IMG/VR virus record: IMGVR_UViG_3300024300_000007
Span: 1 to 38,069 of that record
Reading direction: 5' to 3' (one strand)
Source of the DNA: a virus
DNA: 38,069 nucleotides
The notes under the pieces were generated by a model. It made no database searches. It was given only the letters and a program-made list of their open reading frames with translations, and was not told the origin of the DNA. A program made the translations under genes and the position numbers. Positions 4,659 through 30,017 of the stretch are shown here, piece after piece (position 1 is the stretch's first letter; the number at the start of each line of letters is the position of its first letter).

Positions 4659-7544
4659 TCACGAGTAAATCGTTCCATTCAGCGTCAGGTTGAAAGTTTG
4701 CCCCCTTGGGTTTGGGTTGTTGAAATCTGCCCAGCACCAAAGATTGCCTTGTCCGCTTTGCGCGGCAAGCGTCCAGAAGACTCCTTCTTCGTAAAGGTCT
4801 CCCATTTTCTGCTCTTGCGGAATTTGCATCAGAGAGTTCCACGTTGAATTGTAATAGCATTGTACAAAAGAACCGAGGAGAGAAGTATCTAAAGTGCCAT
4901 TTGTTCCAGTTGTACCCGCCGAGCCGCCTGTGCAATCGTAGCCGGAAGCTCCACCCGACCCGCCTGCTCCGCCGCTTCCACCTGTGCGCGAGATGTTGCC
5001 TGTTGCAATTAAAGTATTGCCGCGAAGAAAAACATCACCAGCGTTGCCGCCCCCGCCTCCGTTTCCGCCCCAACCGCATTGGGCGCCACTGTAGCCTGTG
5101 GTGACTGCGCTTGCGCCATTTCCACCATTACCTCCATTGCCTGCGCTCGTGTTGATATTGCCCGTGAAGTAGAGCTTTAAGGCGGTTGCGAAGAAGTGCG
5201 GGCTTGAATTTCCAGCTACGCCTCCTCCTCCACCCGAACCTGCCGCGCCTGCGCCTCCGCTGCTTGAGGAAGCTGCAGCATTCCCTCCAAAAGCGGAGCC
5301 TGCGTTTCCGCTTGAGGCACTTCCACCTCCGCAGGTATATACGCCTCCGCTTCCTCCGCCTGAAAGGGCGACGTATGGATTGCCGCTTGTTGAGCCGTCA
5401 GGTGCGCCTGAACGTGATACGCCCGAACCGCCTGGGCCCTCGCCAGGACCGCCAGGACCGCCCGCACCGTAGAACGAACCGCCGCCTCCGCTGCAGCCAT
5501 TAACCACGCCCCCTCCCCTGCCACCAGCGCCATATGTGCCAGAGGTAGTTGTGAATGCCACGCCATCAACTATTTTTGTGCCTGCTGATGCGTTGAGGAT
5601 ATTTGCTATTGAAACATTGCCGGAGATATTCAAGGTATCGGTTGCATGTATCATCAAGACCGTGCCGTTTGTCGTCTGCGTAGAGAGGACTGTGCCAGCG
5701 CCGAGCGTGAAGTTGGTGAAGTTATAGCTGCGGTCAAGCGCCAAATAGAGGGTGTTGCCTGAAACGTTGTAGTCTGCAGGCGTGGTCATTGAGCCATAGG
5801 TCTTTGTTGTGGTTGTGAAATTCACTGCGCCAAGTGCTCCGTTTCCGAGCGATTGATTGGAATACTTCAGCTTTATTTGCATTGTTGAAGAATTGTTTTG
5901 GCAGTTGAAAGCACTTACGTTGCTTGTATTCGTGGCTGTCGTGTTGCCGAATTTGACTTGGAGCGTTGCGTTGCTTGCGAAGGCTGATTTTGAATAATTG
6001 ACATATACTTCTGTATTGCTGAGCGTGGAGGCGGTTGCCCAATTACCGTCCATCCATGCGCCGCTTGAGCCATAAGTTCCAGATGGAAGTGCACCACATG
6101 TCCCCCGCACTGTAGCTGTTTCTTGATAGCAGATTGACGGCGAGGGATTGTAAGGCGCGATTACCGAGATATTCTTAAAGGTCGAATTGAAGCTCACCGC
6201 CGCGCTCGATGAATAGTTATCAGCGCATTTGAACGTAAAGCCAGCGATGTCATTAAGCACCTTTCCGATTACCTGCGCCGCGAATGGCTGTGTGTTGTTG
6301 ATGATGTAGAGGGGATATGTGTAGCTCTGATTGACGGGTTCTACATCTTTTGCCCATGCGTGAATGGGACGCAGTGAAAGTCCGGTTATGGCTGCGCTGT
6401 ATGCTGCGGTTATCATTGGCATTTGCGTTGGAGTGAGAGGCGCAAAATCTGCGCACCCTACAAAATTGCATGTGAATTTTCCATCCGCCGTGCTGTTATT
6501 GTACGGATAGTGAGTGCCAGTTGTCCCGATAAAAAGCCCTGCGATTGAAGAAGGAACTGCTCCGGAAATATTCCGCGAACCATTCAAGACGTTTGCATAC
6601 CGATTACCCTGATTTAAACCATTGTAGGAGCAGTTGTAAAAATTCGTGCCGTTGGTGTCATAGACATAGGCTTGAGCCGTAGCCAAGAAATCATTTAAGC
6701 AAAAGATATTCCGCCCCGAGCCTGGCACTTCAACGCTCAAACTTCTGGATGATGAACCAACAATAGAGTTGTTTATGAGCGTATTGTTGTTGCAATTCGT
6801 TTGCAGTGCTATGCCGTATGTAGAACCATTGAAGGATGAATTTGCAATGATGTTGTTTGAACTATTCAAGCTCAATGTCATTGCATTATATGAGCCATAG
6901 CCGACGACAGTCAAGTTTGAAAGAACGTTGTTGTTTCCACGAGTGTAAATATATATTGGAATATTTACCGCATACAGCCTTGAATTACTAATTGAATTGA
7001 ATGTACTGTCTGTGAGCATTCCGAGCGCGCGCGAGTTGGTCACTGTGCTATTGGCGAAGACGTTTTGTATTGTGATGTTGCTTGCTCTTGTTAAGCAGAT
7101 TGAATAGCCAGAATTGCACTCAGACACGACCGCAGAAGCCGTAGTCACGTTTATGTTGAGAATTGCTCCTTTGGAGATTGTGGTGTTTCCAATTTGAATG
7201 CCTGTTGCAAAACTTGATATATTGCAGTTCTGTATAGTGGCATTGTTGGCAAGCACATAAACTCCGCGTGAATTTGCTGTGTTTGCCCCTGTGATAGAGT
7301 AGCCTTTGCAATCCAATGTGACATTTGCAGCAGTGATATTGAAACAGCTTACATTCGTTGAAGAAGAAGCATTCATCGTATATAATGCACCTGCCACGTC
7401 AAGGCTCACATTGCACGACACGTTGCCGGCGCCTGTGCCTGTTTCCAAGCCATCCCAAGGATTGCGCGGAGCGGGCTGCAGCACAAAGCCAAGCAGGGCG
7501 AGCGCGAGAAGCCCGATTGCTAAGACTACATGCTTGAATTCCAT
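4659..7544 (-). CDS. Giant beta-helix and glycine-rich surface adhesin
   Basis: 961 residues. An N-terminal hydrophobic span (residues 5-24) is followed by QPAPRNPW, then repeated short strands rich in Asn, Ser and Thr (about 60-330) typical of a right-handed beta-helix (NosD-like). A Cys-containing middle follows, then a run of more than 150 residues dominated by Gly, Ser and Ala (about 680-880), and a C-terminal beta domain with paired Cys. Dozens of N-x-S/T sequons are spread along it, as in glycosylated archaeal surface proteins. It probably forms a tail fibre or tip that binds the host. The glycine-rich run could pack as a polyglycine-II bundle, as in some phage adhesin tips; this is inference. 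The ATG at 7544 lies one base after the upstream stop. Confidence 0.7.
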   Translation of the reverse strand: MEFKHVVLAIGLLALALLGFVLQPAPRNPWDGLETGTGAGNVSCNVSLDVAGALYTMNASSSTNVSCFNITAANVTLDCKGYSITGANTANSRGVYVLANNATIQNCNISSFATGIQIGNTTISKGAILNINVTTASAVVSECNSGYSICLTRASNITIQNVFANSTVTNSRALGMLTDSTFNSISNSRLYAVNIPIYIYTRGNNNVLSNLTVVGYGSYNAMTLSLNSSNNIIANSSFNGSTYGIALQTNCNNNTLINNSIVGSSSRSLSVEVPGSGRNIFCLNDFLATAQAYVYDTNGTNFYNCSYNGLNQGNRYANVLNGSRNISGAVPSSIAGLFIGTTGTHYPYNNSTADGKFTCNFVGCADFAPLTPTQMPMITAAYSAAITGLSLRPIHAWAKDVEPVNQSYTYPLYIINNTQPFAAQVIGKVLNDIAGFTFKCADNYSSSAAVSFNSTFKNISVIAPYNPSPSICYQETATVRGTCGALPSGTYGSSGAWMDGNWATASTLSNTEVYVNYSKSAFASNATLQVKFGNTTATNTSNVSAFNCQNNSSTMQIKLKYSNQSLGNGALGAVNFTTTTKTYGSMTTPADYNVSGNTLYLALDRSYNFTNFTLGAGTVLSTQTTNGTVLMIHATDTLNISGNVSIANILNASAGTKIVDGVAFTTTSGTYGAGGRGGGVVNGCSGGGGSFYGAGGPGGPGEGPGGSGVSRSGAPDGSTSGNPYVALSGGGSGGVYTCGGGSASSGNAGSAFGGNAAASSSSGGAGAAGSGGGGGVAGNSSPHFFATALKLYFTGNINTSAGNGGNGGNGASAVTTGYSGAQCGWGGNGGGGGNAGDVFLRGNTLIATGNISRTGGSGGAGGSGGASGYDCTGGSAGTTGTNGTLDTSLLGSFVQCYYNSTWNSLMQIPQEQKMGDLYEEGVFWTLAAQSGQGNLWCWADFNNPNPRGQTFNLTLNGTIYS

Positions 7545-7545
7545 G

Positions 7546-9945
7546 CTATTCCTCCGTGAAGATGAAATCAAAGGGAACGTAGCTTCCCTCAATCACGTTG
7601 TTGCAGTCCATCCTGAGCCAGCAGTAGGCATTTGCGTTGGTGCTATTGACGTTCAGCAATCCTTTATATCCCGTTGTTTGCGAAAGCAAGTTCCAGCCCA
7701 CAAGCCCAAGCCCAGGCGGTTTGTATTGGTCGCAGCGTGCATAGACCGAAACGCCAGCAGGCACAGTGTTGTTGAGGAAAAGCGTGTAGTTGCGAAGCAC
7801 TGTTGTGTTGTAGTTTTGGATGCGGAAAATGCCTATGCCTGCCTTTTGCCCTGTTGGGGTCATGCCCTCAATCGTTGGGAAAGCGCATGCGAGCTTGACC
7901 GAGGTTTGCCCTGTTGGGAGGAATATCCCAAAGCCGGAAACGTTCAGGGAGTAGTTCGTGCCGAGAGCATATTTGTAATTCGCCTTGTCTGCGGAGCATT
8001 GCCAGTAGTGCGGGCCTGCGAGAAGGATTGCGGTGTTCTGGTAGTAGTAGGTCTTGCTCGTGCTGTTGAAGGACATTGCATAAGGCACGCCGTCAAGGTA
8101 GAGATAGGGGGTTGCTGCTTCAATTGGCGTTCCGCTTGAGTTGGAGTAGTTGCAGGAGAAGAAGATTGTGCTTGTGCTTACTGTGCCGTTGGGGGTTGCC
8201 TGCCCAGATACATTCGCCTGCATATCCGTGAGGTTGAAATTCACGATTGCGGGCGAGGAGAAAATGCCGGAGGAGTTGTTGAAGGCTATCACGCGCATTT
8301 TTGCGTTGTAGGGGTAATCCGTGCCCTGCCTGTGCGTGTCAAGAACGGGCGTGCCATTGTTGCTGCTATTGAATGGAAAGCTGTAGTAGTCGGGCGAGAG
8401 CCAAGTCCAAGTGCTGCCATTGTCCTTTGAGAAGGAAATTAGGAGCGTTGTATTTGCAGGTTGTGTGGCATTTACGGAAATGTTCTGCAGGTAGGCGGTG
8501 AAGTTTGAGGTTGCATTTGGCACGACGAATGAGGCATTTGTCGGGGAAAGGCAAGTGGCTGCAGAGGTTGTCGCTGCGGGAGAGAACCTTGACCAATCCA
8601 TACCAGTCCAATTGCCACAGTAAGCTACATTCCAAACGCCATTAGAACCGCTTGAGCAGCCGCTTCCCCCCGCCCCGCCTGTAGCGGTCAGCATTGCCAA
8701 GCTGCAGGTAATGTTGTTGCTCACTACGATATTTGAAGTGCCGCCTTTCCCGCCGTTTGCGCATGCGCCATAAGTGCAAGCAGAGCCACCTGTGCCGCCA
8801 AGAGCATTCACAGTTGCGGTGTTGTTGAAGTAGGTAAAGTTGCCCGTAATGTTGCCTGCATCACCTCCGAGCTTGGCGGGCGAGCCAGTGGAGCGCACGC
8901 ATACCGCATTCGCGCCGGAAGTCGCAGAGAGGGTGATTGCACCAGTTGAGGCAAAGTTGGTTTTCACAAGGGGATTGAAAATGAGTTTTCCGCCATTGCC
9001 TCCAAGTCCTCCCGAAGCCGAGCAGTAGTTGTAGCTTGATGCGCAGTGCGCGCCGCCATTGTCAGCAGTAATGCCAGCGCCGGATGTTCCCGCCGAAAGC
9101 GTGATTGCGCCCGAGCCGCTCATGTGCGCTGCGGTGATATTGAGCGTTGCGCCTGTTCCGCCGTCGCCCCCTCCATAGCAGCAGGGCACATAATAGGAGC
9201 AGTCTCCGTAGTGCCAGCAGTTGCTAATTACCCAAGGAGCAGGCCCCGCAAGACCGTTTCCTGTAATCGCGCCATCGTGCGTGAAATTCATTGTTGTGAT
9301 TGAGAGCGTATAGGGCGGGTTTGCGGGCGTGATTGTGATGCTGCCTGTTGCGCCAAGGTTTATGCTTTCAACCGCAATGATGCTCACGTTTGAATTGACG
9401 GTGATTGCCGCATCTATCTGCAGGTTGCGTATGTAGTACGTTCCAGCGGAAAGGGATTGCGGGTTTGAAACTATGCAGTCGGCAGAGCCGCAGCCGGGGA
9501 AGATTATGCCGCGCGTGCTTGCGAGGGAGAAGGTCAGGTTTTGGTTGAAGAATGTTTCGCTTGTGCCGGGATTTTCATTCTGCACGACGCGCAGGGGTTG
9601 GCAGGCTACATTGCCTTCCACAGCACTCACGCTATCGCACGTCCAAAGAAGCCAGTCGGTTGAGTTTTGGGCGCATGAGGTGTAAGAGCCTGGCGTGCCA
9701 TAAGAAACCGAGTTTATCGTCTTGGTCGTGTTGGGATGCACCTCCCAAATGCAAGGCACGCTGCTGCCAGCATAAAGCCATTGGGGAGCGGGAAGAAGCT
9801 GCGCATAAACGCCGCCTATTTGGGGCGTTCCCCATGCTTCCGTTGAAAGCTGCGGGGGTTGATTGAAGCCTGCAAGCGCAAGGAAAACTGCTGCGCCAAA
9901 GGCGAGGATTGCAAACCCGAATTTCAAAAGGTCTTTTGCCTCCAT
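7546..9945 (-). CDS. Large glycine-rich sequon-rich surface protein
   Basis: 799 residues. It begins with a membrane-spanning segment (residues 8-27, FGFAILAFGAAVFLALAGF) and the sequence NQPPQ. Then come a Cys-bearing N-domain, a glycine-rich beta region (about 215-440, with blocks such as GGDGGTGATLN, GGLGGNGGKL and GGTGGSACTYG) and two or more Ig-like beta domains (about 460-680). The C-terminal domain also contains Cys pairs. Many N-x-S/T sequons suggest it is glycosylated by the host. It is a likely partner or paralogue of the next gene in architecture and a candidate host-binding protein. The ATG directly abuts the upstream stop (TAGATG), so translation is coupled. Confidence 0.65.
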   Translation of the reverse strand: MEAKDLLKFGFAILAFGAAVFLALAGFNQPPQLSTEAWGTPQIGGVYAQLLPAPQWLYAGSSVPCIWEVHPNTTKTINSVSYGTPGSYTSCAQNSTDWLLWTCDSVSAVEGNVACQPLRVVQNENPGTSETFFNQNLTFSLASTRGIIFPGCGSADCIVSNPQSLSAGTYYIRNLQIDAAITVNSNVSIIAVESINLGATGSITITPANPPYTLSITTMNFTHDGAITGNGLAGPAPWVISNCWHYGDCSYYVPCCYGGGDGGTGATLNITAAHMSGSGAITLSAGTSGAGITADNGGAHCASSYNYCSASGGLGGNGGKLIFNPLVKTNFASTGAITLSATSGANAVCVRSTGSPAKLGGDAGNITGNFTYFNNTATVNALGGTGGSACTYGACANGGKGGTSNIVVSNNITCSLAMLTATGGAGGSGCSSGSNGVWNVAYCGNWTGMDWSRFSPAATTSAATCLSPTNASFVVPNATSNFTAYLQNISVNATQPANTTLLISFSKDNGSTWTWLSPDYYSFPFNSSNNGTPVLDTHRQGTDYPYNAKMRVIAFNNSSGIFSSPAIVNFNLTDMQANVSGQATPNGTVSTSTIFFSCNYSNSSGTPIEAATPYLYLDGVPYAMSFNSTSKTYYYQNTAILLAGPHYWQCSADKANYKYALGTNYSLNVSGFGIFLPTGQTSVKLACAFPTIEGMTPTGQKAGIGIFRIQNYNTTVLRNYTLFLNNTVPAGVSVYARCDQYKPPGLGLVGWNLLSQTTGYKGLLNVNSTNANAYCWLRMDCNNVIEGSYVPFDFIFTEE

Positions 9946-10498: not shown

Positions 10499-12370
10499 TC
10501 ACCTTGACTGCGACCTCCAAAGTGTTGCGAATTCCTGCTGCACGGTTTCAACTACAAACTCGCGGTTTTTCTCGTCTATGTTTCCCGCCACGTTGAGGTT
10601 CAATACGAATGTTGGAGCGCCCCCTCTAAGGCCTGCGAGCTTGTGTTCGGGGATAACGTACTCGTTCTCGCCCCCTTCGCCTAAGAGAGCGAGGGTTGGC
10701 TGCGTGATTATGCCGCCTGCAGCCAATGGAACGACTCCGCTTGCCGCCAGACCTTCCGCCCCTTGTGTCAGTTCAACGGAAACTTTAGAGCCGCCCTGGA
10801 TAATGTTTTTCACCCATCCCGAAACGCTGTTGATTGCGTCCTCAATTCCTTTGGCAAAGTTGTTTATGAGGTCTATGCCCCATTGGATGCCTTTTGCGAC
10901 AAAATCCGTGAATGCTTTTGTCACGTCGGTGATAAACTGTTCAATGTTTTTCTTGACTGTTGCTCCGATTTCATTCACGGACTTTGAAAAATCATCCCAC
11001 AGCTTGTCCCACTTGTCTTTTATTGACGTGAAAAACTCGCTCATTGCCGTGGCTACTGGTTCAATTACGAACGTCTGAATTGAAACTACGAGGAGATTTC
11101 CGCTTGCCCCAGCTACCGCTCCTATTCTATTTATTAAATCGCCAATGGGGTCTTTTCCTGCCAACCAATCAAATGCTACAACTATCTGGTCAAGCAAACT
11201 GTCGGTGAGCGGTCTAAGTGCGCGCCCAACCGCCTCCATTGCGTTTTCAACCTTATTTGCCGCTTGCTTTTGTTTTTCCATTCCTGTGACTGATAATTCG
11301 CGAGCCTCGTTTGCATTTTTTATCGTTTCAATTTCCTTATCCTGTGAAGTTTTCAAGCTGTCAATTTGGGTTGTCAAGTCCGAGGCTGCCTTTTGAGCTT
11401 CTTCCATTTTTGCCTTGTATTCGGTGAGCTTGTCATTGACTTCTTTTTGCCGGTCTGCGATGTCCTCCTTCTTATCCGCTATGTCCTGGTCAATGTCGCC
11501 AACACGTTGGGTTAAATCCGCAATCTCCTTCTCCCCGTCCTTTTGAAGCCGATTGCGCCTATCTGTGGCGTCCTGCAGCCGTTCCTGCGCGCGTATAAGC
11601 TTTTCCTGCTTGCGTGCCTCTTCGTCTTGGTCAGCCGCGTGTTCTTGATTTATCCTATTGACATCAAGCTGCGCCCGCATCACTTCCTTATCGGCCTCCT
11701 TCATCCTGTCTGTTTGTTCATCCTGGGCTTCGGTTATGTCCTGCACCGCCCTTTCGCGCGAGGTGTTCAGGTCGCGCAACGCCCTTTCCTCTGATTTTGT
11801 CATGCCAAGCTGCTCATTGAGTTTTGCGATTGTGTCGGAGTATTCTGATATTTTATCATTTACGCCGTCAAGTTCCCTGTTTTTTTCTTTCAGGGCATCT
11901 GCATATTCGCCTTCCTCTCTAAGAAGTATTTTGACAGCTTTTTGAACAGAGATGTGTCTGTCTGCGGCGGTTGCCAGAATATCCACGGTGTCGTCCATTG
12001 CCTGCTCAACGGAGCGCCCAGAATTTACAAGAAGCTGGAAAGCTTGTGCCGTGTCGTCGGTTTCAAACCCAATTGCTTCCATTTCATCGTTCAGCTGAGT
12101 TATAGCCTGCTTTGCCACGTCAAAACTGCCAACCGCGTTTGCCGCAGCCCTCGCTCCGTCGGTTATTGCCTGCTCCTCCTTATTTGCAGCATCAACGCAG
12201 GCCATCAGGGTTGCCGCCACAACCCCGCCAGTTGCGATTAGGGGGGCAAAATCAGAAACGAAGTTGCCTGCACTTTTGCCGCTTGCCTTGACATTATCGC
12301 TTAGCTGCGCAAACTTTTGGGAAGCAAAGTCCTGCGCCTGCAAGATGAACTTTATTTCGTGGTCGGCCAT
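10499..12370 (-). CDS. Tape measure protein
   Basis: 623 residues. A helical N-terminal domain (with TDDTAQAFQLLVNSGRS, typical of TMP-like proteins) leads into a long charged coiled coil (about 165-375) and a C-terminal part that carries the well-known TMP ending, GGIITQPTLALLGEGGENEYVIP near residue 565. It runs along the tail lumen and sets tail length; at about 0.15 nm per residue the tail would be near 90 nm. The ATG at 12370 has GAGGG upstream; an ATG at 12388 is also in frame. Its first codons overlap the end of the frameshifted tail chaperone, as in many siphophages. Confidence 0.85.
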   Translation of the reverse strand: MADHEIKFILQAQDFASQKFAQLSDNVKASGKSAGNFVSDFAPLIATGGVVAATLMACVDAANKEEQAITDGARAAANAVGSFDVAKQAITQLNDEMEAIGFETDDTAQAFQLLVNSGRSVEQAMDDTVDILATAADRHISVQKAVKILLREEGEYADALKEKNRELDGVNDKISEYSDTIAKLNEQLGMTKSEERALRDLNTSRERAVQDITEAQDEQTDRMKEADKEVMRAQLDVNRINQEHAADQDEEARKQEKLIRAQERLQDATDRRNRLQKDGEKEIADLTQRVGDIDQDIADKKEDIADRQKEVNDKLTEYKAKMEEAQKAASDLTTQIDSLKTSQDKEIETIKNANEARELSVTGMEKQKQAANKVENAMEAVGRALRPLTDSLLDQIVVAFDWLAGKDPIGDLINRIGAVAGASGNLLVVSIQTFVIEPVATAMSEFFTSIKDKWDKLWDDFSKSVNEIGATVKKNIEQFITDVTKAFTDFVAKGIQWGIDLINNFAKGIEDAINSVSGWVKNIIQGGSKVSVELTQGAEGLAASGVVPLAAGGIITQPTLALLGEGGENEYVIPEHKLAGLRGGAPTFVLNLNVAGNIDEKNREFVVETVQQEFATLWRSQSR

Positions 12371-12953
12371 GTTTTTCCCTCGCGCCATGCCTTTCTGAAT
12401 TCATGGAACCTCTTTCTAAATGCCTCCTTCTGCTTCGCTTCCGAGCGGGCGCTTCTTTTCCTGCTCCCTTTCAATACCGCAACCGCATCTAATAAATTTA
12501 TCGCGTCGCCGAGCTTTATCCTTGAGGAGTATTCAAGGGTGTAGCCTGTTGCTGCGGAGATGAGGTATCTTGCGGGTGGGTTTCCGTCGTCGGTTTGCCC
12601 TTCGTCGGGCTCTCTGATAAAAAATCACTATTCGCTTTCCTGTAAAGCTCCATTATTTCGGAGGTTTTGTCTGCCTTGAAACGCGGGGCTTTTTCGGCTA
12701 TTTGATTGACGTACTCCCTGAATTTTGGAAGGTCAAGCCCTGTTTTTTTTAGAAGGTCGTCGGATGAAAGGAGGATGGCGCGCACGGTTTCCACAAAAAG
12801 GAGCGTTGTTTTTGGCGCGTCTGGATTTGTCGCCGCCAGGTCTTTGTATTTTTCCCTTGCGTTTGCCATTATTTCCGAGCCTTCAGTGTTCAATTGCTCC
12901 ACTATGAACGGCTTGCCGTCCATGATTTCCGGTATGCTTATCTCGTTTTGCAT
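12352..12953 (-). CDS. Tail assembly chaperone G-T fusion (by -1 frameshift)
   Basis: Reading from ATG 12953 to the UUUUUUA heptamer at 12618-12624 and then slipping back one base gives a 200-residue product: 112 residues in frame 0 and 88 in the -1 frame. The -1 part has protein-like composition (about residues 126-200: PPARYLISAATGYTLEYSS, then a helix LGDAINLLDAVAVLKG and a basic helix rich in Arg and Lys) and ends at a TAA at 12352-12354, 19 bases inside the tape measure gene. In tailed phages the G and GT chaperones, made by such a shift, coat the tape measure while the tail forms. The frame and the site are seen directly; use of the shift is inference. Confidence 0.8.
12516..12953 (-). 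CDS. Tail assembly chaperone G (unshifted product)
   Basis: 145 residues, helical, acidic in its first half, with a disordered Pro/Thr/Gln-rich end (about 116-145) that is simply the non-shifted tail of the reading frame. The conserved-looking body (about 35-110) ends at NSDFL, exactly where the slippery heptamer lies. Position (between tail tube and tape measure genes) and frameshift layout identify it as the phage lambda G-type chaperone analogue, even though the sequence itself is not similar. The ATG at 12953 is preceded by GGTG; a GTG at 12962 is less likely. Its start overlaps the end of the zinc-ribbon gene by about 70 bases. Confidence 0.75.
   Translation of the reverse strand: MQNEISIPEIMDGKPFIVEQLNTEGSEIMANAREKYKDLAATNPDAPKTTLLFVETVRAILLSSDDLLKKTGLDLPKFREYVNQIAEKAPRFKADKTSEIMELYRKANSDFLSESPTKGKPTTETHPQDTSSPQQQATPLNTPQG
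12618..12624 (-). promoter_or_regulatory. UUUUUUA slippery site (-1 frameshift)
   Basis: On the minus strand the heptamer T TTT TTA is in the phase X XXY YYZ relative to the chaperone frame (gaT TTT TTA). The -1 frame downstream stays open for 88 codons, while upstream the same frame has stops within a few codons (TAG and TGA over AAT-AGT-GAT). This is the same heptamer used in HIV-1 gag-pol and in some phages. I did not identify a clear downstream pseudoknot. Confidence 0.8.
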
Positions 12954-13167
12954 TTGCACCACTCTCCAATTTCAATTTCTCATGATATGCCGTAAGTTTG
13001 TTTCGCAAGAAAATCCGCGCTTGCGATGGCGCGTGCATTAATGTCCTTTCAACGTCGTAGATTTGAGAAGCTTGGCAATTGCCGCACCGCAGCACCATGA
13101 ACTTGCCCTCTGAGAAAAATTCTTCTAATCTCATCGGGCACATGCAACGCGGGCAATCCCAACTCAT
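12883..13167 (-). CDS. Zinc-ribbon protein, leaderless transcript
   Basis: 94 residues beginning MSWDCPRCMCPMRL. A CxxC knuckle at residues 5-8 and a second at CGNC near residue 28 form a short zinc ribbon; the rest is basic and helical with several His at the end. Its function is not known. The start at 13167 lies about 25 bases after the centre of a good TATA box (13187-13197), so its mRNA should be nearly leaderless. The gene begins a new transcription unit after the tail tube terminator and overlaps the start of the tail chaperone gene by about 70 bases, which is more than elsewhere in this genome. An in-frame extension upstream (to 13329) runs through the terminator and is not supported. 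Confidence 0.6.
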   Translation of the reverse strand: MSWDCPRCMCPMRLEEFFSEGKFMVLRCGNCQASQIYDVERTLMHAPSQARIFLRNKLTAYHEKLKLESGANAKRDKHTGNHGRQAVHSGAIEH

Positions 13168-13282: not shown

Positions 13283-14065
13283 TTACAGGTTTGCCTGGAT
13301 TGTGATGTCCGTGTCGGGGTCGCGCACATTCACGTCCTGCTCCGGCAAAACTCCTTCGGAGGCGCTTCCCATTTCAAGCGGCATGCTTCCAAGCCAGCAG
13401 TTGGTCATTGTCACCAAGAGGTATTGGCTTGCACTTTTCATCACTTTTGCGGTGATGGTCACAAACTTTGGCTTGCCGAGCGAAACGAGCTTCTGGCCCG
13501 CGCCATAGACCGTTACGTTGTCGTTGGCGTTCAGCACTGCGGGAATTATCGCGCTTGTCACCGTCTTGAACTTGGTGTTGCCATAGTAATAGACGGTAGT
13601 GGAGCCTGTTGCCTGCAGCGTGAATGAGATGTTTTCGGAAATGGGCGCGTCGTTTGCATCTGTGCCGTTGATGGTCACTGCTCCCGCCGAGTACCCGTCG
13701 GTTGAAATGATTTTCAGCTTTATGGTCATCGGGGCGCTTGGAGGTGTCCATGAGGCGGTTATGAACTGCGCTGAGCCTGTGCCTGATATTGCCGCGTGGA
13801 GCGTTTCGTCGGAGGTTGTGGTCACGTTTGTGCCGTCGTTGAACGCATCAATCATCAGGTCGCCGTCAATCAGCCCGTACTTGAGCTTTATCTTCGGGTC
13901 TATTTTGCCCGGAAGGTTGAGGTCTGACCATTTGCCGCCGCGAGGGATTTTCACCACATCACGCGGAAGGTCAAGGGTCATCTTGCAGTAAGCGAAGGCG
14001 ACGCCACCATAAGTGACCACGCCATCAACTCCTGTGTAAGTATTCACGCCTGTTTCGGTTGCCAT
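13283..14065 (-). CDS. Major tail tube protein
   Basis: 260 residues, almost wholly beta. The opening (VVTYGGVAFAYCKMTLDLPRD) and a mid-protein insertion that looks like an Ig-like domain (about 105-190, with VTINGTDANDAP and FTLQATGSTTVYYYG) fit a siphovirus tail tube subunit with an added surface domain. It lies between the tail terminator and the tail chaperone genes, where the tail tube gene is expected, and is followed by a strong terminator, as befits a highly expressed gene. I did not see a recognisable family signature beyond this; position carries much of the weight. Confidence 0.65.
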   Translation of the reverse strand: MATETGVNTYTGVDGVVTYGGVAFAYCKMTLDLPRDVVKIPRGGKWSDLNLPGKIDPKIKLKYGLIDGDLMIDAFNDGTNVTTTSDETLHAAISGTGSAQFITASWTPPSAPMTIKLKIISTDGYSAGAVTINGTDANDAPISENISFTLQATGSTTVYYYGNTKFKTVTSAIIPAVLNANDNVTVYGAGQKLVSLGKPKFVTITAKVMKSASQYLLVTMTNCWLGSMPLEMGSASEGVLPEQDVNVRDPDTDITIQANL

Positions 14066-15986: not shown

Positions 15987-16946
15987 TCACTCTATGTAAA
16001 GCTTGTATCTTGGGGATGTCCTTGTGCAGTTGTTTCCAGCATAGTCCATCCACGCCCAGATAAATTCTTCTTCTGTTGAAATCTCCCCCAGCGATTGGTT
16101 TGTCGTGTTGATTTTTATGCCATCCATGCATTTGTCGTGTCCGAGGGCAAGCGTCAGGTTGTAGCATGGCGCGATTGAAGCGTTTATGCGTGCTGACACT
16201 GGAAGAGGGGGGCTTCCTGCGTTGGAGTGCCTCACCCTATAGACCCCTGTTCCGCTTTCTGTTTGGTTTGTGGCTGGAAAACAAGTTGTCCCGTTCCAAG
16301 GAAGCGTTGCGAATGTGGCGTTTGTGTCAAAGGTGTGGGTGACTGTGATGTATGCGTCTGGGGCTTCGCCATACCAATCAACCCCTTCCTCGTATGCGGT
16401 TGCCGTGGTAATATTTTCCCTGAGAATATTGCCACTGCAAGACCATCTGGCATATCTTAGGACTGGGGGGGTGTTCATAAGGCTTACTGTGAGAGTTAGC
16501 GTGGGAGGCTCCACTTCTTCATCTACAGGGCAATCTTCAAGTGAAAGGTTTGCATAGCCACCTCCATCCCTTATTCTCCACAATGAGCCAGCCCCCATTA
16601 CCCCCCCTTCGTGCGTCACGTTGTCGGGAATAGCATAGACTATTATAAGCTGTGCGCCAACCACATTTCCGCTTTCAGCCATGCCCCAAGTCCCCCAGTT
16701 ATCATCATAGACGTTTGCGCATGTTCTTGCCCTGTCCCAGTTTCCTGTGCAAGTGTATGAGCCTACCCCTTCAGCCGTGCATACGGGAGTTCTTGCATTT
16801 TCGTCGTAGCAGAATGAGCCGCCTGCGCCTGTAAGAAGCTGATTTGGCGTTTGAGGCTGAAAAAAAAGCCAGGCTAATATGGCAATGGAGATAAAAGAAA
16901 GCGCCGCTAATGCCAATTTCAAGGTATCTGCAGCTATTTTTGACAT
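15987..16946 (-). CDS. Membrane-anchored Cys-rich surface protein
   Basis: 319 residues. A hydrophobic span (residues 9-30, TLKLALAALSFISIAILAWLFF) precedes QPQTPNQL. The rest is an extracytoplasmic-type chain with at least ten Cys and several N-x-S/T sequons, including an N-terminal CYDENARTPVCTAEG motif and an Ig-like centre. The same plan, a span followed by a Gln-Pro motif, begins the two giant tail adhesins, so all three may be sorted the same way. Its gene lies among head and neck genes, suggesting a head or collar spike; a host-surface protein is the alternative. Confidence 0.55.
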   Translation of the reverse strand: MSKIAADTLKLALAALSFISIAILAWLFFQPQTPNQLLTGAGGSFCYDENARTPVCTAEGVGSYTCTGNWDRARTCANVYDDNWGTWGMAESGNVVGAQLIIVYAIPDNVTHEGGVMGAGSLWRIRDGGGYANLSLEDCPVDEEVEPPTLTLTVSLMNTPPVLRYARWSCSGNILRENITTATAYEEGVDWYGEAPDAYITVTHTFDTNATFATLPWNGTTCFPATNQTESGTGVYRVRHSNAGSPPLPVSARINASIAPCYNLTLALGHDKCMDGIKINTTNQSLGEISTEEEFIWAWMDYAGNNCTRTSPRYKLYIE

Positions 16947-17041
16947 CTATCCGCACCATTTTGCGGATTGCGCCGCGCTCGCGTTCCGCTTTTGTCATTC
17001 CCACATGCCGCGCGGTTCGGGCTTTTTTGCGTTAGGTGTTA

Positions 17042-18163
17042 TCAGCGCAAGAGCACGACTTTTGCTTCTGCCTTGAGCTTGTTGCTCTGGTTGTAAAGAT
17101 AGCTCGCCTGTGCGGCGGTTATGCTCGTGTTGAAGAAGCTCAACTCGTCATAATACGCCCAAAGGCTGTACTTGTAGCTCGTATTGTGGGTGAAATAGCC
17201 ATCCCCAAGGAACCAGTGCTGATTGCTGAAGTTCATATTTTGCACTGTGGTTGGCGTGTCGTTTGCAACAAGCGCGCCATTGTAGTACATTTTGGCATCT
17301 GTCCCGTTGAAGGTAAGGGCAAAGTGCGCCCATCCCGTCACGTTGAAAATGCCTTGAGTGCGCGTGTAATTGACTGTGCGGTAAGTCACATTGGTGAAAA
17401 TCTGCCACTGCACTGTGGTATTGTTGAGCGCCACAAGAGCGGTTGTGTTCGTGCCGTTGCCTGTTGCATTGAGGATGCCCCAATTCGCCCCCTTGTGGAG
17501 CAGCGCTGCGGTTGCGTTTTCCGGCAGGCCCACGCGCGGGTTGAACCAGAATGCCCAGGTGGAGTTCGTGCGCGTCACGTTTATGAGGTTGGTGTCGTTG
17601 ATGCGCATGCTTTCGTTGGAATAGGTATTGACAAGCTCTATTGCATAGCTTCCAATTGCACCCGTTTGCCAGCTTGTCCCTGTTGGGTCTTGCCCAAGCT
17701 CCGCGGCGGTGTAGAGCCTTGCGGTTCCTATTGAGGCGTTTGTCACGTTGCCCCTTCCTTCCTCAAAGCGCCAATTCGCCGCGAGGGTTGAGTTGGCGTT
17801 CAGGGTCGCGCCGTTTGCAAAATTGCTGATGCATGAGAGGTTAATGTTCCCAAAATTGGTGTAGTTCGCAACTGTGCGGTTGAGGAACGTCGTGCCGACT
17901 GTTACGTTTGTCTGAAAAATCTGCGTGTTGTTGTCGTCGCGCAGAGTGCAGGAAATATCCTCGCCGCCCGTGTTGGTCAGCCGCCAGTATTGGATGCGCC
18001 CAAAGGCATTTCCAAAAAGGGTATCTTCGCTGCCCCAGTTTGGCTTGTCAATTTTAGCCTGCCTGTAATCGTAGCCTGTTCCGAAGAAATCAGCTTTTGT
18101 CTGTTCCGCGAAGGCGGAGGCTGCCAAGAGCAGCAACGCAAACATGAATACCTGCTTGAACAT
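17042..18163 (-). CDS. LamG-like (concanavalin fold) secreted protein
   Basis: 373 residues. A clean signal peptide (MFKQVFMFALLLLAASAFA, cut before EQT) leads to a beta domain of about 110 residues, then a LamG/laminin-G-like domain (about 135-350) with the typical landmarks WRFEEGRGN, STWAFWFNPR, GWAHFALTFNGTDAKMYYNG, and YDELSFFNTSITAAQASYLYN. Such domains bind sugars. Many sequons are present. It lies within the head genes, so it may decorate the capsid and bind host glycans. The start is the second of two ATGs in GGAGGGATGCCCATG, because that gives normal spacing from the ribosome site; the major capsid gene has the same arrangement. Confidence 0.75.
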   Translation of the reverse strand: MFKQVFMFALLLLAASAFAEQTKADFFGTGYDYRQAKIDKPNWGSEDTLFGNAFGRIQYWRLTNTGGEDISCTLRDDNNTQIFQTNVTVGTTFLNRTVANYTNFGNINLSCISNFANGATLNANSTLAANWRFEEGRGNVTNASIGTARLYTAAELGQDPTGTSWQTGAIGSYAIELVNTYSNESMRINDTNLINVTRTNSTWAFWFNPRVGLPENATAALLHKGANWGILNATGNGTNTTALVALNNTTVQWQIFTNVTYRTVNYTRTQGIFNVTGWAHFALTFNGTDAKMYYNGALVANDTPTTVQNMNFSNQHWFLGDGYFTHNTSYKYSLWAYYDELSFFNTSITAAQASYLYNQSNKLKAEAKVVLLR

Positions 18164-18191
18164 GGGCATCCCTCCTTTTACTCTGCCTTGC

Positions 18192-18728
18192 TCAAGCAAT
18201 GTACTTGAGCTTCACGCGCACGCTTACCCCAACAAGCGCTGTTGGCGTTCCTGTGAGGACAAGCGCAAGTGCGTCGCCCGCGGCAAGCTGCCTGTTGGCG
18301 AGCGTTGCGTGGAGCGAGCCGTTCTGGTTGGTGTTCGCGATTGCCTTCATATTTATTCCAGCCGAAAGCATGTCCGTGCCGGAAGCAGGCGCGGTTCCGC
18401 TTGCAACTTTCTTGAGCATGGTAGTCACTGCGCTGCCGTCCGAGCCTGCTGTTTCGTGGCGCTCGGTGATTTCCACAAGCTCCATTGCGGTTGGAGCTAT
18501 GAAAAAGCATGTGGTGAAGTTTGCCGCTGTTTGTGGCTCGGTGTTTTTGAGCAGATGCTCAATTGTAATGTACTCCGAACCCATAGGGGCGCTGCGCCTT
18601 ATGCGCTTGCCCACAAGGTTATCTGCGATATTTGCGCTTCCCATGAACATCACTTCCCGCGCTTTGTAATTGCCTGCATCCGCGCGGCGAAGCAGGACAG
18701 GGCGGGCAGTTTTCGGGCTTGCGCCCAT
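18192..18728 (-). CDS. Capsid decoration or head fibre candidate
   Basis: 178 residues. The C-terminal 110 residues form a beta domain (MELVEITERHETAGSDGSAV, then LSAGINMKAIANTNQNGSLH, ANRQLAAGDALALVLTG, and GVSVRVKLKYIA) of a type I know from many phage head or fibre proteins whose role is not settled. It sits directly after the major capsid gene and a T-rich terminator-like tract. The N-terminus is basic (KTARPVLLRRADAGNYKARE). The start is uncertain: ATG 18728 has a G-rich site upstream, but ATGs at 18650 and 18644 are also possible. Confidence 0.55.
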   Translation of the reverse strand: MGASPKTARPVLLRRADAGNYKAREVMFMGSANIADNLVGKRIRRSAPMGSEYITIEHLLKNTEPQTAANFTTCFFIAPTAMELVEITERHETAGSDGSAVTTMLKKVASGTAPASGTDMLSAGINMKAIANTNQNGSLHATLANRQLAAGDALALVLTGTPTALVGVSVRVKLKYIA

Positions 18729-25378: not shown

Positions 25379-25969
25379 TCAAGTGCCTGAAATGGGTGGC
25401 GTTTGGGGGGTCGGGTTTATCGTAGCGGTGTTTTTCTTGTCTTTCTTGCGCGTGTAGGTCTTGACCGTGTCCATGTCTATCTGCTTGTTGCAATGGGGGC
25501 AGTCTATGAAGCGCTGGGCGGGGCGCATGTCCATCATGTCAAAGTCGGGGAGGTTGGAGAGGTCAATGTAGGCTTTTACTTCCTCAAGCTTCATGTTGAG
25601 ATTGACCGCGAGCTGCTCTACCTGTACATGGTGATTTTGCACGATGTCTTGCAGCAGCTTTGCCTTGAGGGAGGGGTCATCCGCGCCTTTGATTGAGTTG
25701 AGGAGGAGGGTGAGGGTCTTTGCCGTTTCGTCATCCATTTGTTGGCTGTTGCACGGTATCTTTTCCAGCCCGAGCTCGCAAGCTGCCCGCCATCGGTGCT
25801 CGCCGTCAATAATCTGCTGCTTCTTGCCATCGGGTCGGCTGACTATAGCGCCTTGAAATCCCCTTGCCTTTATTGTCCTCTTGAGGTGCTCAAATTCCTC
25901 TTGGCTCATCCTATTTGAATTCCAAGGATTGGGCGCAAAGTCCTTTACTGGTAGATAGAGCAATTCCAT
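25379..25969 (-). CDS. ParB/DpdB-like protein with C-terminal zinc motif
   Basis: 196 residues. The N-terminal 90 residues are a ParB-like domain (DFAPNPWNSNRMSQEEFEHL, IIDGEHRWRAACELG), in which the GEHR box binds a nucleotide. A helical domain follows, and a short zinc element (CPHC) at about residue 158 precedes a basic, Pro/Thr-rich tail. Its ATG directly follows the stop of the TGT-like gene. In the bacterial Dpd system, DpdB is a ParB-like ATPase needed along with DpdA to put preQ0 into DNA, so this protein is probably its counterpart. That equivalence is inference from domain and place. Confidence 0.75.
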   Translation of the reverse strand: MELLYLPVKDFAPNPWNSNRMSQEEFEHLKRTIKARGFQGAIVSRPDGKKQQIIDGEHRWRAACELGLEKIPCNSQQMDDETAKTLTLLLNSIKGADDPSLKAKLLQDIVQNHHVQVEQLAVNLNMKLEEVKAYIDLSNLPDFDMMDMRPAQRFIDCPHCNKQIDMDTVKTYTRKKDKKNTATINPTPQTPPISGT

Positions 25970-26749
25970 TCAAATTCCCCCCGTTCCCCAAGGCTTTCTG
26001 AGCTCAAGGTGGTCTGCGTATTTTTTCCATTGTATGATGTTCCACTTATCAGCAGCCATGCGCTGCCCTGTCATCGGCTGAGGCTTCTTATGGTAGCGCA
26101 GGTTGCGTATGGTCCCGCGGTCATAGATGTAGAGCCTTCCGCGCATCTCGCCCATAATCCAGTTGATGCTGTCGGCAGAGTACCAGGGGAAGATGTCAAG
26201 CAGTCGCGGCGAGGTCATGCCGAAGCCATGCACCTTCACTTTTTTTGGGATTATCTCAAAGCACTTTCTGAGAAACGCGCTTCGGAAGGTGTAAGCCCTT
26301 TTGCCGACAAGACCGCCAAGACCAATGTACTTGTAGCCGTTGTCCATGTAGTCCTTGAGGAATTGCCAATCTTCCCCCATGTGGAAGGCAGGCATGGGCT
26401 CAAGCCCTTCCTTCTCCATTGCCTTTTGATTGTCAAGCGTGGCTTCTGCATCCCCGATTACGTCAAGGTTTGCGAAAACATCTATGCTCTTTTGGTGAGC
26501 TTTGACGAACTCAGTGTACTCCTCAAGCTTGATGGATGCTCCGCTGTTGTAGGCTGAGAACGCCCCGCTGTCAAGAAATATGTGAGGGATGCGTACTTCC
26601 CGCGTGAGGAAAGAGGGGTCTTTCTTGAGGTAGAAGTAGGAGGTCAGCCCATATTGTACGCCATGCTGAATGAGAGCATCGTATATCTGAGAAGCGTACT
26701 TGCTCTTCACAAACACGCCCCTCTCAATCCCCGCGAAGTAAAGCTTCAT
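25970..26749 (-). CDS. dpdA: TGT-like DNA transglycosylase, copy 1 (DpdA-like)
   Basis: 259 residues, a compact tRNA-guanine transglycosylase-like barrel. Key landmarks: FLDSGAFSA at 58-66 (TGT: D-S-G-G-F; Asp 60 general acid/base), ANLDVIGD at 93-100, GLGGLVGK at 143-150 (TGT: I-G-G-L-x-V-G-E), then HGFGMTSPRLLDIFPWYSAD, in which Asp 193 lines up with the TGT nucleophile. There is no zinc-binding site, as expected for DpdA proteins, which swap guanine in DNA, not tRNA, for preQ0. The ATG overlaps the stop codon of an upstream queC relic (ATGA), and the ParB gene follows without a gap. Confidence 0.85.
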   Translation of the reverse strand: MKLYFAGIERGVFVKSKYASQIYDALIQHGVQYGLTSYFYLKKDPSFLTREVRIPHIFLDSGAFSAYNSGASIKLEEYTEFVKAHQKSIDVFANLDVIGDAEATLDNQKAMEKEGLEPMPAFHMGEDWQFLKDYMDNGYKYIGLGGLVGKRAYTFRSAFLRKCFEIIPKKVKVHGFGMTSPRLLDIFPWYSADSINWIMGEMRGRLYIYDRGTIRNLRYHKKPQPMTGQRMAADKWNIIQWKKYADHLELRKPWGTGGI

Positions 26750-26895
26750 CTTTCTTCCTCGTATTTGGTCGGGTCAATCAAGCCCGCGAGCTTGAAAGCC
26801 ATTTTTCTTTCTTGGCACGTTCCACATTTTCCACGGTGCAGATTTCTTCCCTCGTAGCAACTCCACGTCCGCGAGTAATCCACGCCGAGAAGATG
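26746..26895 (-). pseudogene. queC: Relic of a second queC (last 49 codons)
   Basis: Read in the frame that ends at TGA 26746-26748, this stretch matches the C-terminus of QueC from His 172 on: HLLGVDYSRTWSCYEG, GKCGTCQERK and so on to the end, in about 30 of the first 35 positions. One of the four zinc Cys (Cys 192) is replaced by Arg. It has no start codon of its own. The stop overlaps the ATG of dpdA copy 1, just as a complete queC would have done. The segment is joined, in another frame, to the broken ParB gene at a short GC-rich match (GCGCGCGG). Confidence 0.9.
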
Positions 26896-27085
26896 CCGCG
26901 CGCCAGCGGTGTTCGCCGTCTATTATTTGGCTTTTGCCGTTGAGGGGGCGGGCTACTACAGGCAGCTTGAAGCCGAATTTTTTTATTGTGGCTTTCAAGT
27001 GGTCAAACTGCTCCTCGCTCATGCGGTTGCTGTTCCAAGGATTAGGCACGAATTCCTCAACTGAAATTACCTTAAGCTCAAACAC
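26774..27085 (-). CDS. Truncated ParB-like protein, chimeric C-terminus
   Basis: 104 residues from a GTG start that directly follows the dpdA copy 2 stop. Residues 1-64 are homologous to the start of the other ParB-like protein (VPNPWNSNRMSEEQFDHL, IIDGEHRWRAA). At that point homology ends and the remaining 40 residues are a frame-shifted reading of a queC 3' end, so they are not a natural domain. The nucleotide-binding box GEHRWRAA is complete, but the helical and zinc parts found in the longer paralogue are lost. The product may be inactive, or it may act as a free ParB N-domain. Confidence 0.75.
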   Translation of the reverse strand: MFELKVISVEEFVPNPWNSNRMSEEQFDHLKATIKKFGFKLPVVARPLNGKSQIIDGEHRWRAASSRRGLLADVELLRGKKSAPWKMWNVPRKKNGFQARGLD

Positions 27086-27856
27086 TCAAATCCCCCCGCT
27101 GCCCCAAGGCTTGCGCTGCTCAAGATTGTCTGCGTACTTTTTCCACTGTATGATGTTCCATGTGTTGGCGACGACGTGCTGCTGCTTGCCTGCATGCACC
27201 GCCTTTGTGGTGAGGTGCTTCATTGTGCCGTCTTGGAAGGAGTACAGGGAGCCGCGCATTGCCCCAAGTAGCCAATTTATGCTGTCAATTGAGTACCACG
27301 GAAAGAGGTCTATCAGCCTTGGGCTTGTCATGCCGTACCCATGCACTTTCACGTTTTTTGGAATTTCGCTGAATGCCATTTTGCAGAAGGCGAGCCTGTG
27401 CTTGTGCGGCTTTCCCACAAGCCCGCCCAAGGCAATGTACTTGTACCCCGCGTCAATGTAGAGCTTGAGCCATTTCAAATCTTCGCCGAAGTGGAAGGTA
27501 GGGAGCGGGTGCAGGCCTGCCTTTTCCATGTGCAGGTGATTTTTGTATGTCTGCTCCGCGTCGCCTATCACGTCCAGCCCCGCGCACACTTCCAGCTTTT
27601 TTTCGTGCTCCTTGATGAACTCAATGTACTTGTCTATGTCAATGTTGGCGCCGCTGTTGTGCGCGGAAAATGCGCCGCTGTCAAGGAAAAGCCCCTGCAT
27701 GAAAGCGAAATCCTGCATGCGTGCGGGCGTGTCTTTCATGTAGTAGTAGGAGGTCAGCCCGTACTTTATCTTGAACGCCTTGAAGTCGCGCGTGAGCGCT
27801 ACTCCTTGGCTGTTGGAAACAAGGATATTTTCAACGCTTGCAAAGTACAGTTTCAT
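27086..27856 (-). CDS. dpdA: TGT-like DNA transglycosylase, copy 2 (DpdA-like)
   Basis: 256 residues, clearly paralogous to copy 1 (about half the residues the same) over its whole length. The TGT landmarks are kept: FLDSGAFSA with Asp 59, AGLDVIGD, ALGGLVGK, and VHGYGMTSPRLIDLFPWYSID with Asp 191 as candidate nucleophile. Both copies end in a nearly identical KPWG(S/T)GGI. The N-terminal 55 residues differ most, so the two may recognise different DNA sequences or bases. The ATG lies one base after the queC stop; an in-frame ATG further upstream would run deep into queC and is rejected. A GTG-started ParB gene follows with no gap. Confidence 0.85.
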   Translation of the reverse strand: MKLYFASVENILVSNSQGVALTRDFKAFKIKYGLTSYYYMKDTPARMQDFAFMQGLFLDSGAFSAHNSGANIDIDKYIEFIKEHEKKLEVCAGLDVIGDAEQTYKNHLHMEKAGLHPLPTFHFGEDLKWLKLYIDAGYKYIALGGLVGKPHKHRLAFCKMAFSEIPKNVKVHGYGMTSPRLIDLFPWYSIDSINWLLGAMRGSLYSFQDGTMKHLTTKAVHAGKQQHVVANTWNIIQWKKYADNLEQRKPWGSGGI

Positions 27857-27857
27857 A

Positions 27858-28514
27858 TTATTGCCTGTAGATTGTCGGGTCGGGAACGTGCGAGTTGATG
27901 AACGCCTCCTTGCGCTCTTGGCATGTGCCACATTTTCCACAGTGGAGTTTTTTGCCTTCGTAGCAGCTCCACGTCCGTGAGTAATCCACGCCGAGAAGAT
28001 GCCCGCGCGCTGCTATGTCCGACTTTCTGATATGCACATAGGGCGCGTAAATCTTCACTTGAGAGTATGTGCCAAGCTGCGCAGCCATGCTCAAAACCTC
28101 AACGAAGCGCGGTCTGCAGTCGGGATAAATTGCGTTGTCGTTTGCGTGAGGCCCGAAATAAACCTCCTTGATTTTGAGGTTCTCCGCCCAAGCTACGGCA
28201 ATTGAGAGCATCACCATGTTGCGGTTTGGCACTACTGTGAGCTTTTGGTTGGCGTGCGTGTAGTGCTGCTTTGGAATATCGCCCTTGCCTGTCAAGACGC
28301 TGCTTGAAATGATGGATTTTATTGCCCCCAAGGAAACGGTCTTGTGCATGGCGCAGAGCTTCTTGCCCCAATAGTGCGCGTAGGCGAGTTCCTTTCTATG
28401 CCTTTGCCCGTAGTCAAAGGTGAGCCCATAGCACTCTACTCCACGCGCTGCGAGGTCATGGAGAAGCGTCACGCTGTCCATTCCTCCGCTCAAGATGATT
28501 ATTGCTTTTGCCAT
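27858..28514 (-). CDS. queC: 7-cyano-7-deazaguanine (preQ0) synthase QueC
   Basis: 218 residues, full length. The PP-loop SGGMDS is at 9-14, and the C-terminal zinc site has four Cys (184, 192, 195, 198; SCYEGKKLHCGKCGTC). QueC turns CDG into preQ0 with ATP and ammonia. Other expected parts are present: FDYGQRHRKEL (34-42) and VPNRNMVMLS (95-104). It has no GAT domain of the archaeosine enzyme Gat-QueC, so it ends the pathway at preQ0. Its ATG lies two bases after the folE stop and dpdA copy 2 follows by one base, so product and user are made together. Confidence 0.95.
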   Translation of the reverse strand: MAKAIIILSGGMDSVTLLHDLAARGVECYGLTFDYGQRHRKELAYAHYWGKKLCAMHKTVSLGAIKSIISSSVLTGKGDIPKQHYTHANQKLTVVPNRNMVMLSIAVAWAENLKIKEVYFGPHANDNAIYPDCRPRFVEVLSMAAQLGTYSQVKIYAPYVHIRKSDIAARGHLLGVDYSRTWSCYEGKKLHCGKCGTCQERKEAFINSHVPDPTIYRQ

Positions 28515-28516
28515 AA

Positions 28517-29029
28517 TTACCCCATTGTCAATTTCAGGAATTCGTCTTTTGCCTTATAGTCATTGTGCCTGAACACGCCCTTGAGGGCGCTTGTGACCAT
28601 TACCGAGCTTTGCTTCTTCACTCCCCTGCAGCGCATACATTCGTGTTGTGCTTCCAGAACAACCATCACTCCGAGGGGCTCAAGCTCTTTGTCAAGGAAC
28701 TTGGTGAGCTCTTGAGTGAGGCGCTCTTGCAGTTGCGGGCGGCTTGCGAATTTGTCAAGCGCTCTTGCGAGCTTGCTTACCCCGCATATTTTTGACTTGG
28801 GGATATACCCGATGTGAGCCCTCCCAACAAAAGGCATCAGGTGGTGAGCGCAGATTGAAGCGAACTCAATGTTCTTGAGGATGATGAGTTGGTCGTAGTC
28901 GGGATTTTGGAAGGTCGTAAATTTGAAATTTTGCTTGCTCTTGAGCTCCTTGAAGTAGCGAGCTACGCGCTTGGGCGTGTTTTGCCTTTCTTCCTTATCA
29001 AATAATTTATCGCTTACTTCAATTTTCAT
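28517..29029 (-). CDS. folE: GTP cyclohydrolase I
   Basis: 170 residues. The conserved core is complete: ICAHHLMPFVGRAHIGYIP (Cys 60 zinc; His 62 and 63), VSKLARALDKFASRPQLQERLT, and QHECMRCRGVKK (His 129, Cys 131 zinc). The N-terminal region is shorter than in most cellular enzymes. It converts GTP to dihydroneopterin triphosphate, the first step of the 7-deazaguanine pathway. The true start is the ATG at 29029, which overlaps the phosphoribosyltransferase stop (ATGA); a longer frame has no support. It is type IA (FolE), not the archaeal MptA type, so it was probably acquired from a bacterium or another virus. Confidence 0.92.
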   Translation of the reverse strand: MKIEVSDKLFDKEERQNTPKRVARYFKELKSKQNFKFTTFQNPDYDQLIILKNIEFASICAHHLMPFVGRAHIGYIPKSKICGVSKLARALDKFASRPQLQERLTQELTKFLDKELEPLGVMVVLEAQHECMRCRGVKKQSSVMVTSALKGVFRHNDYKAKDEFLKLTMG

Positions 29030-29397
29030 GGTTCCAACTCCCACGGAAAAACAATCCATGCTCCCTTCTTTTCATAAAGCGAGAAGTCCGGCGACGACCT
29101 TGTGAGCTTGTGCCAGAACATAGTAGCTACTTTGTGGTCTTTGAACTTGAGCAGCGTGTCGCCCGTGTCGCTTATGTCATCCACAATGAGCGAGGTTTCG
29201 CGCGGCTCAATGTCAAGGGGCAGCTTGAGCTTGTGCGAAATCATCACCGCAAGGCAAAGCCCCCCTCTTGGGATGCCATAGACGCTTTTCACTTCGCCTT
29301 GTGCTATGCAGCGCTGAAGCTCAAGGTCGCGGGAAAGCACGGTGACGAACTTATTTACCTGCTTCCAGCTTACATATTTTTTTCCTTTTGCCATCAT
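29026..29397 (-). CDS. Purine phosphoribosyltransferase-like protein
   Basis: 123 residues. Type I PRTase signs: VYGIPRGGLCLAVMISHKL (39-57, the N-terminal loop of Gpt-like enzymes) and the PRPP-binding loop SLIVDDISDTGDTL (69-82). It is shorter than cellular xanthine-guanine enzymes (about 150). Such enzymes join a free purine base to PRPP. In this cluster the natural substrate could be the guanine freed by DpdA, sent back to GMP and GTP for FolE; a role with a 7-deazapurine base is the alternative. Two start codons are possible, ATG 29397 (ATGA overlap with queD) or ATG 29394. Confidence 0.8.
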   Translation of the reverse strand: MMAKGKKYVSWKQVNKFVTVLSRDLELQRCIAQGEVKSVYGIPRGGLCLAVMISHKLKLPLDIEPRETSLIVDDISDTGDTLLKFKDHKVATMFWHKLTRSSPDFSLYEKKGAWIVFPWELEP

Positions 29398-30015: not shown

Positions 30016-30017
30016 GC

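Follow-up and report, generated by a model that had tools for sequence, protein, structure and literature searches.

Gene arrangement at the junction

The tail genes of the virus recorded as IMGVR_UViG_3300024300_000007 in IMG/VR raise the question of whether one short gene, referred to here as G, encodes two tail assembly chaperones instead of one. We analysed the whole 38,069-nt stretch of this record (hereafter the window), and the features of the junction between G and the tape measure gene are listed in Table 1. Judged from the nucleotide sequence, it is very likely that G encodes two overlapping chaperones of the lambda G/GT type by −1 slippage at UUUUUUA.

Table 1. Features at and around the G/tape measure junction of the window
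Feature	Position	Strand	Remarks
Tape measure protein gene	10499..12370	-	AUG 12370 preferred; AUG 12388 in frame
T, −1 frame after slip	12352..12618	-	88 codons, AUC to stop at 12354-12352
G, putative tail assembly chaperone ORF	12516..12953	-	AUG 12953; 145 aa; adjoins the 5′ side of the tape measure gene
Possible stimulatory hairpin (weak)	12597..12610	-	4-bp GCCC/GGGC stem, 6-nt loop, begins 7 nt after the heptamer
Slippery heptamer U_UUU_UUA	12618..12624	-	X_XXY_YYZ phase
Candidate major tail protein gene	13283..14065	-	operon position, upstream of G; weak alignment

The codons of G at the heptamer are GAU UUU UUA UCA, and the heptamer therefore starts on the third base of a codon (minus strand, 12624-12618), 99 nt upstream of the G stop codon at 12518-12516. 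A sequence-only reading of this DNA had proposed that UUUUUUA lies in the correct phase for −1 slippage, and this is borne out. In the −1 frame, two stop codons (UAG UGA) directly precede the heptamer and are followed by UUU UUU AUC AGA, so that the frame opens exactly at the heptamer. It then contains no stop for the whole length of T, and its own stop falls within the tape measure ORF, in agreement with the earlier claim that this frame ends inside that gene. The predicted G-T fusion from AUG 12953 has 112 + 88 = 200 residues; an alternative in-frame start of G is GUG 12962. There is no AUG or GUG in the T frame over all of T; a single UUG occurs, some 45 nt beyond the G stop. Without the T frame, a gap of about 145 nt would be left empty ahead of the tape measure gene. 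The C-terminus of T is basic, with a charge of +5 in the last 20 residues. The zero-frame product of G ends in a tail rich in S/P/T/Q.

The tape measure ORF matches the tail length tape measure families of PHROGs (best 9.6e-6), and its score against Pfam TMP_2 (0.0033) falls below the cut-off. Its start is likely AUG 12370 rather than AUG 12388, as the related genes start at the same place and have similar N-termini. The candidate major tail protein aligns weakly with the tail proteins of the relatives (16% identity). Between this gene and G lies a small zinc-ribbon-like ORF (MSWDCPRC...CGNC; 12883-13167), which shares about 70 nt with the beginning of G.

We then inspected how often such a site is expected within this genome. 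With any X and Y allowed, the window contains 56 in-phase X_XXY_YYZ heptamers per 11,941 in-phase positions. If Y is restricted to A or U, UUUUUUA is the only heptamer of the window with a long −1 frame behind it that extends beyond the gene end. A random frame of this length would stay open with a chance of about 1%, by our own estimate of (61/64)^90. When G is shuffled among synonymous codons, 13% of trials yield an in-phase heptamer within the overlap, and hence the observation from a single genome is suggestive only; the comparison with relatives makes the evidence for frameshifting strong.

The junction in related viruses

In IMG/VR, no direct or close relatives of the window's G or of its candidate tail protein were found. 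A search with the window's tape measure protein gave a sole match, the same virus from another sample, and the heptamer site lies outside that copy; compared with 22 terminase relatives, the protein likewise matched nothing except the same-virus copy. The relatives were reached through the terminase, a protease profile, and then a profile built from their major tail protein, which led to 37 loci, most of them directly containing the junction. The closest complete relative, G023 (loci L096 and L137), has 58, 54, and 52% identity to the window in protease, portal, and capsid, respectively. The same coding sequence appears to be present at both ends of the G023 contig (the end of L096 and the start of L137), which suggests that its genome is complete and circularly permuted or terminally repeated.

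An in-phase X_XXY_YYZ heptamer is present in the G/T overlap in 25 of the 27 non-redundant genomes with T at −1, as compared with 12.8 expected from synonymous shuffles. The set includes the window itself; two truncated loci (L166 and L185), one locus whose gene call is uncertain (L178), and L183, which nearly duplicates L181, were left out. By phase, the overlap contains 31 heptamers in the slippery phase versus 11 and 14 in the other two, and the upstream part of G has no slippery-phase bias (11, 16, and 8). The overlap heptamers include AAAAAAG, AAAAAAA, AAAAAAC, GGGAAAA, CCCAAAA, and UUUAAAA, of which AAAAAAG/A/C and GGGAAAA are the commonest; UUUUUUA occurs in the window only. Conservation among relatives, which the sequence-only reading had named as a check, thus holds for an in-phase slippery heptamer at the junction but not for UUUUUUA itself, which the closest relatives have not kept.

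In G023, G ends with CCA AAA AAG UGA, and T is in the −1 frame. Its junction (L137:6120-6200) places A_AAA_AAG immediately ahead of UGA, with AGGAGG upstream and an 8-bp stem that begins 7 nt further on. This layout resembles the E. coli dnaX signal and is a good candidate for a reporter. A GUG also overlaps the G stop of G023 (GUGA), beside AAAAAAG. In G005, another close relative (L077:4927-5000), the −1 frame is open without a canonical heptamer, and a 13-bp stem with a z of about −4 comes after UUUUCUG. L169 also lacks a heptamer. Three loci (L167:5339-5575, L171:5347-5568, and L173:5282-5497) lack a heptamer and have T at +1, where an AUG precedes the G stop by 23-29 nt; such an arrangement would point either to coupled initiation or to a +1 frameshift like the one proposed for HSTV-2. 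Loss of the heptamer in relatives had been regarded beforehand as counting against frameshifting. This was seen in part: the closest relatives carry other heptamers, G005 carries none of canonical type, and the three more distant viruses have T at +1 with its own AUG. The junction of G030 (L139:18390-18420) has a run of ten A, at which polymerase slippage could act too.

Across the set, Shine-Dalgarno (SD)-like pairing to the 3′ end of 16S rRNA upstream of the sites averages −7.6 kcal/mol versus −4.0 kcal/mol in controls (p 6e-7), and RNA folding downstream has a z of −1.26 versus −0.23 (p 4e-4), although such z and p values overstate the significance because the remaining relatives share ancestry. 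The upstream SD-like sequence is often GGUGAU(G). At the window's own site both signals are weak. SD-like pairing amounts to −4.0 kcal/mol, and the downstream z is −1.2 in the set comparison. Folding of the RNA 3′ of the heptamer, also suggested by the sequence-only reading, did give a small possible hairpin, but its signal is weak, with z from −0.9 to −2.2 depending on the stretch length. Scored against the junction profile of the relatives, the 14 nt that follow the window heptamer rank above 99.8% of window positions, in a test run after the likeness had already been noticed by eye.

Identity and fold of G

By family searches, G of the relatives is only weakly connected to known chaperones (PHROGs tail assembly chaperone, 0.0096; Pfam Phage_TAC_7, 0.089), and NCBIfam gave nothing relevant for this family. 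The AlphaFold model of the relatives' G family has a pLDDT of 82. It aligns with YqbN (3KLU) with a Z of 8.8 over 83 residues at 2.9 Å and with the HK97 tail assembly chaperone (2OB9) with a Z of 5.3, and also matches viral tail chaperones including those of HCTV-1, HHTV-2, and ChaoS9. The modelled G of the relatives thus folds like a tail assembly chaperone.

The window's G has no family match of its own in PHROGs or Pfam, and its AlphaFold model (pLDDT 51) is too poor for a fold comparison. Neither G nor T of the window matches the relatives' profiles in hhalign. The window's G does not match G of G005 either, and the SDFLS motif common to the slip sites of these two viruses is therefore only anecdotal. 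Membership of the window's G in the chaperone family would come from its position, the gene arrangement, and the junction. On these grounds, namely position, phase, the open −1 frame devoid of a usable start, and the genomes compared, its earlier identification as a G/GT-type tail chaperone is well supported.

Proposed mechanism and alternatives

In the mechanism we propose, most ribosomes would read G through to the stop at 12516. On U UUU UUA, where tRNA-Phe would occupy the P site and tRNA-Leu the A site, a minority would slip by one base onto UUU UUU and go on through the T codons to produce the fusion. If lambda is a guide, the tape measure protein may be coated by many G and few G-T molecules, while the T part may recruit the tail tube protein, the tube then polymerising around the tape measure. 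We infer the slippage itself, the ratio of G to G-T, the roles of the proteins, and the archaeal ribosome.

One alternative is a sequencing or assembly artefact, with one U lost from seven and the real gene being a single 200-residue ORF. A one-base homopolymer deletion would yield exactly such a pattern, and the heptamer is known from one assembly, the near-identical contigs L002 and L003 stopping short of the site. Nonetheless, the two-frame arrangement with a heptamer recurs in 24 other non-redundant genomes, and the zero frame past the site has its S/P/T/Q-rich tail as in relatives, which makes an artefact very unlikely. We give an equally small chance to the −1 frame being open by accident with no fusion made. 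The probability of 0.13 for an in-phase heptamer in the single genome and the dissimilarity of the window's G and T to the relatives' proteins would fit such an accident; the filling of the gap before the tape measure gene, the fit of the junction sequence to the relatives' profile, and the conservation of the arrangement among relatives speak against it. Independent initiation of T, or coupled re-initiation where G ends, seems slightly less probable still: the three more distant relatives with T at +1 and the GUGA of G023 offer precedents, but initiation at the only start-like codon in the window's T, the UUG, would remove half of T. Least probable of all is transcriptional slippage on the U run, by which an extra U would put some mRNAs in frame for G-T. 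The site is a homopolymer, and the ten A of G030 are a comparable case; however, the GGGAAAA or CCCAAAA of several relatives suits tandem tRNA slippage and not polymerase slippage, and six U are short for the latter. Ribosomal −1 slippage at UUUUUUA is the reading that we retain.

Host of the virus

The sequence-only reading took the virus to be archaeal. This gains indirect support from N-glycosylation sequons, the host itself being inferred. Specifically, N-X-S/T is enriched in four large surface proteins of the window (z 5.1-7.9), while the reversed motif reaches at most 1.3. These sequon-rich proteins are located at 4659-9945 and 15987-18199. The same enrichment, with the reversed-motif control, is found in G023, G005, and G030, and it is absent from three bacterial phages of the same terminase lineage as the window virus, namely Flavobacterium phage 11b, Cellulophaga phage phi10:1, and Bacteroides phage Versailles. 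The haloarchaeal virus HVTV-1 is not enriched either, and the sequon test is therefore specific rather than sensitive. In style, the window's surface proteins may resemble those of DPANN archaea. No tRNA genes were found, and a genome scan with the terminase returned two bacterial matches only, giving no clue to the host.

An ordinary phage frameshift in a bacterial host would leave the slippage unchanged and concerns the host alone. The large terminase is closest to that of phage 11b (47%), and SD-like and stem stimulators occur across the family, as in bacteria. Aside from the sequons, which set the window, G023, G005, and G030 apart from the three bacterial phages, a bacterial host is opposed by the portal, which also matches haloarchaeal viruses, and by the lack of any peptidoglycan hydrolase detectable with Pfam in the proteins scanned, whereas 11b carries a GH19 enzyme. 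We consider a bacterial host improbable, and an archaeal host is the best reading of the sequence and a rather probable one. Use of U_UUU_UUA as a −1 site by ribosomes of an uncultured archaeal lineage, with little help from an upstream SD or a strong stem, and at a junction that has A_AAA_AAG or G_GGA_AAA in related viruses, is a more specific proposal that we hold as doubtful. If it is true, slippage at U_UUU_UUA could, speculatively, depend on wyosine-type modification of archaeal tRNA-Phe, and a link between tRNA modification and viral tail assembly becomes testable.

Elsewhere in the window, QueC, FolE, QueD, and QueE form a cluster with DpdA-like genes (27858-30743), which suggests that the viral DNA carries a 7-deazaguanine modification. 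At 25379-27940, a tandem duplication comprises a queuine-transferase-like (DpdA-like) gene and a ParB-like gene, and a C-terminal fragment of QueC is found at 26788-26916, beside the full QueC.

Comparison with known systems

To our knowledge, there are few examples of frameshifting on archaeal ribosomes, mostly from haloarchaea and Sulfolobus. The window virus, whose lineage is uncultured, is a further probable archaeal case. It has precedents, as −1 G-T frameshifting has already been reported for the haloarchaeal viruses HVTV-1 and HCTV-1/2/5 (PMC8211752, PMC5009743). Like the window virus, these are tailed viruses with an annotated or predicted −1 G-T, but the window lineage is not close to them, and their heptamers are G_GGA_AAG, G_GGA_AAC, and A_AAA_AAC (PMC5009743) as opposed to U_UUU_UUA. 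The HVTV-1 chaperones (HVTV1_129/130) are annotated as G and G-T, with G_GGA_AAG as the heptamer. In HVTV-1, GGGAAAG is followed by UCAGAGCAGCCAUC, while the window heptamer is followed by UCAGAGAGCC; the 14 nt after the HVTV-1 heptamer, UCAGAGCAGCCAUC, are identical in the relative L181.

The junction heptamer varies among the window and its relatives (AAAAAAG, AAAAAAC, GGGAAAA, CCCAAAA, and UUUUUUA), yet it stays slippery and in phase. Such a change of identity with slipperiness and phase kept is the pattern that selection for slippage, and not for the amino acids, would leave. The relatives' junctions are also ready-made reporter inserts for comparing archaeal with bacterial ribosomes. U_UUU_UUA is less shift-prone than A_AAA_AAG in E. 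coli (PMC5009743). At U-rich sites, slippage also responds to wyosine-type modification of tRNA-Phe (PMC5009743).

Lambda G/GT, with G_GGA_AAG, shares with the window the gene order, the overlap, the −1 direction, a heptamer near the 3′ end of G, and a T that extends to the tape measure gene (PMC5009743). The window differs in its U_UUU_UUA, in the distance of this heptamer from the G stop, and in that no protein similarity to lambda was found. The likeness in fold to HK97 gp13 (2OB9) and YqbN (3KLU) belongs to G of the relatives. Two features of the window's lineage are unusual: UUUUUUA is absent from the heptamers reported for archaeal viruses (PMC8211752, PMC5009743), and one heptamer appears to have replaced others at the same junction among relatives.
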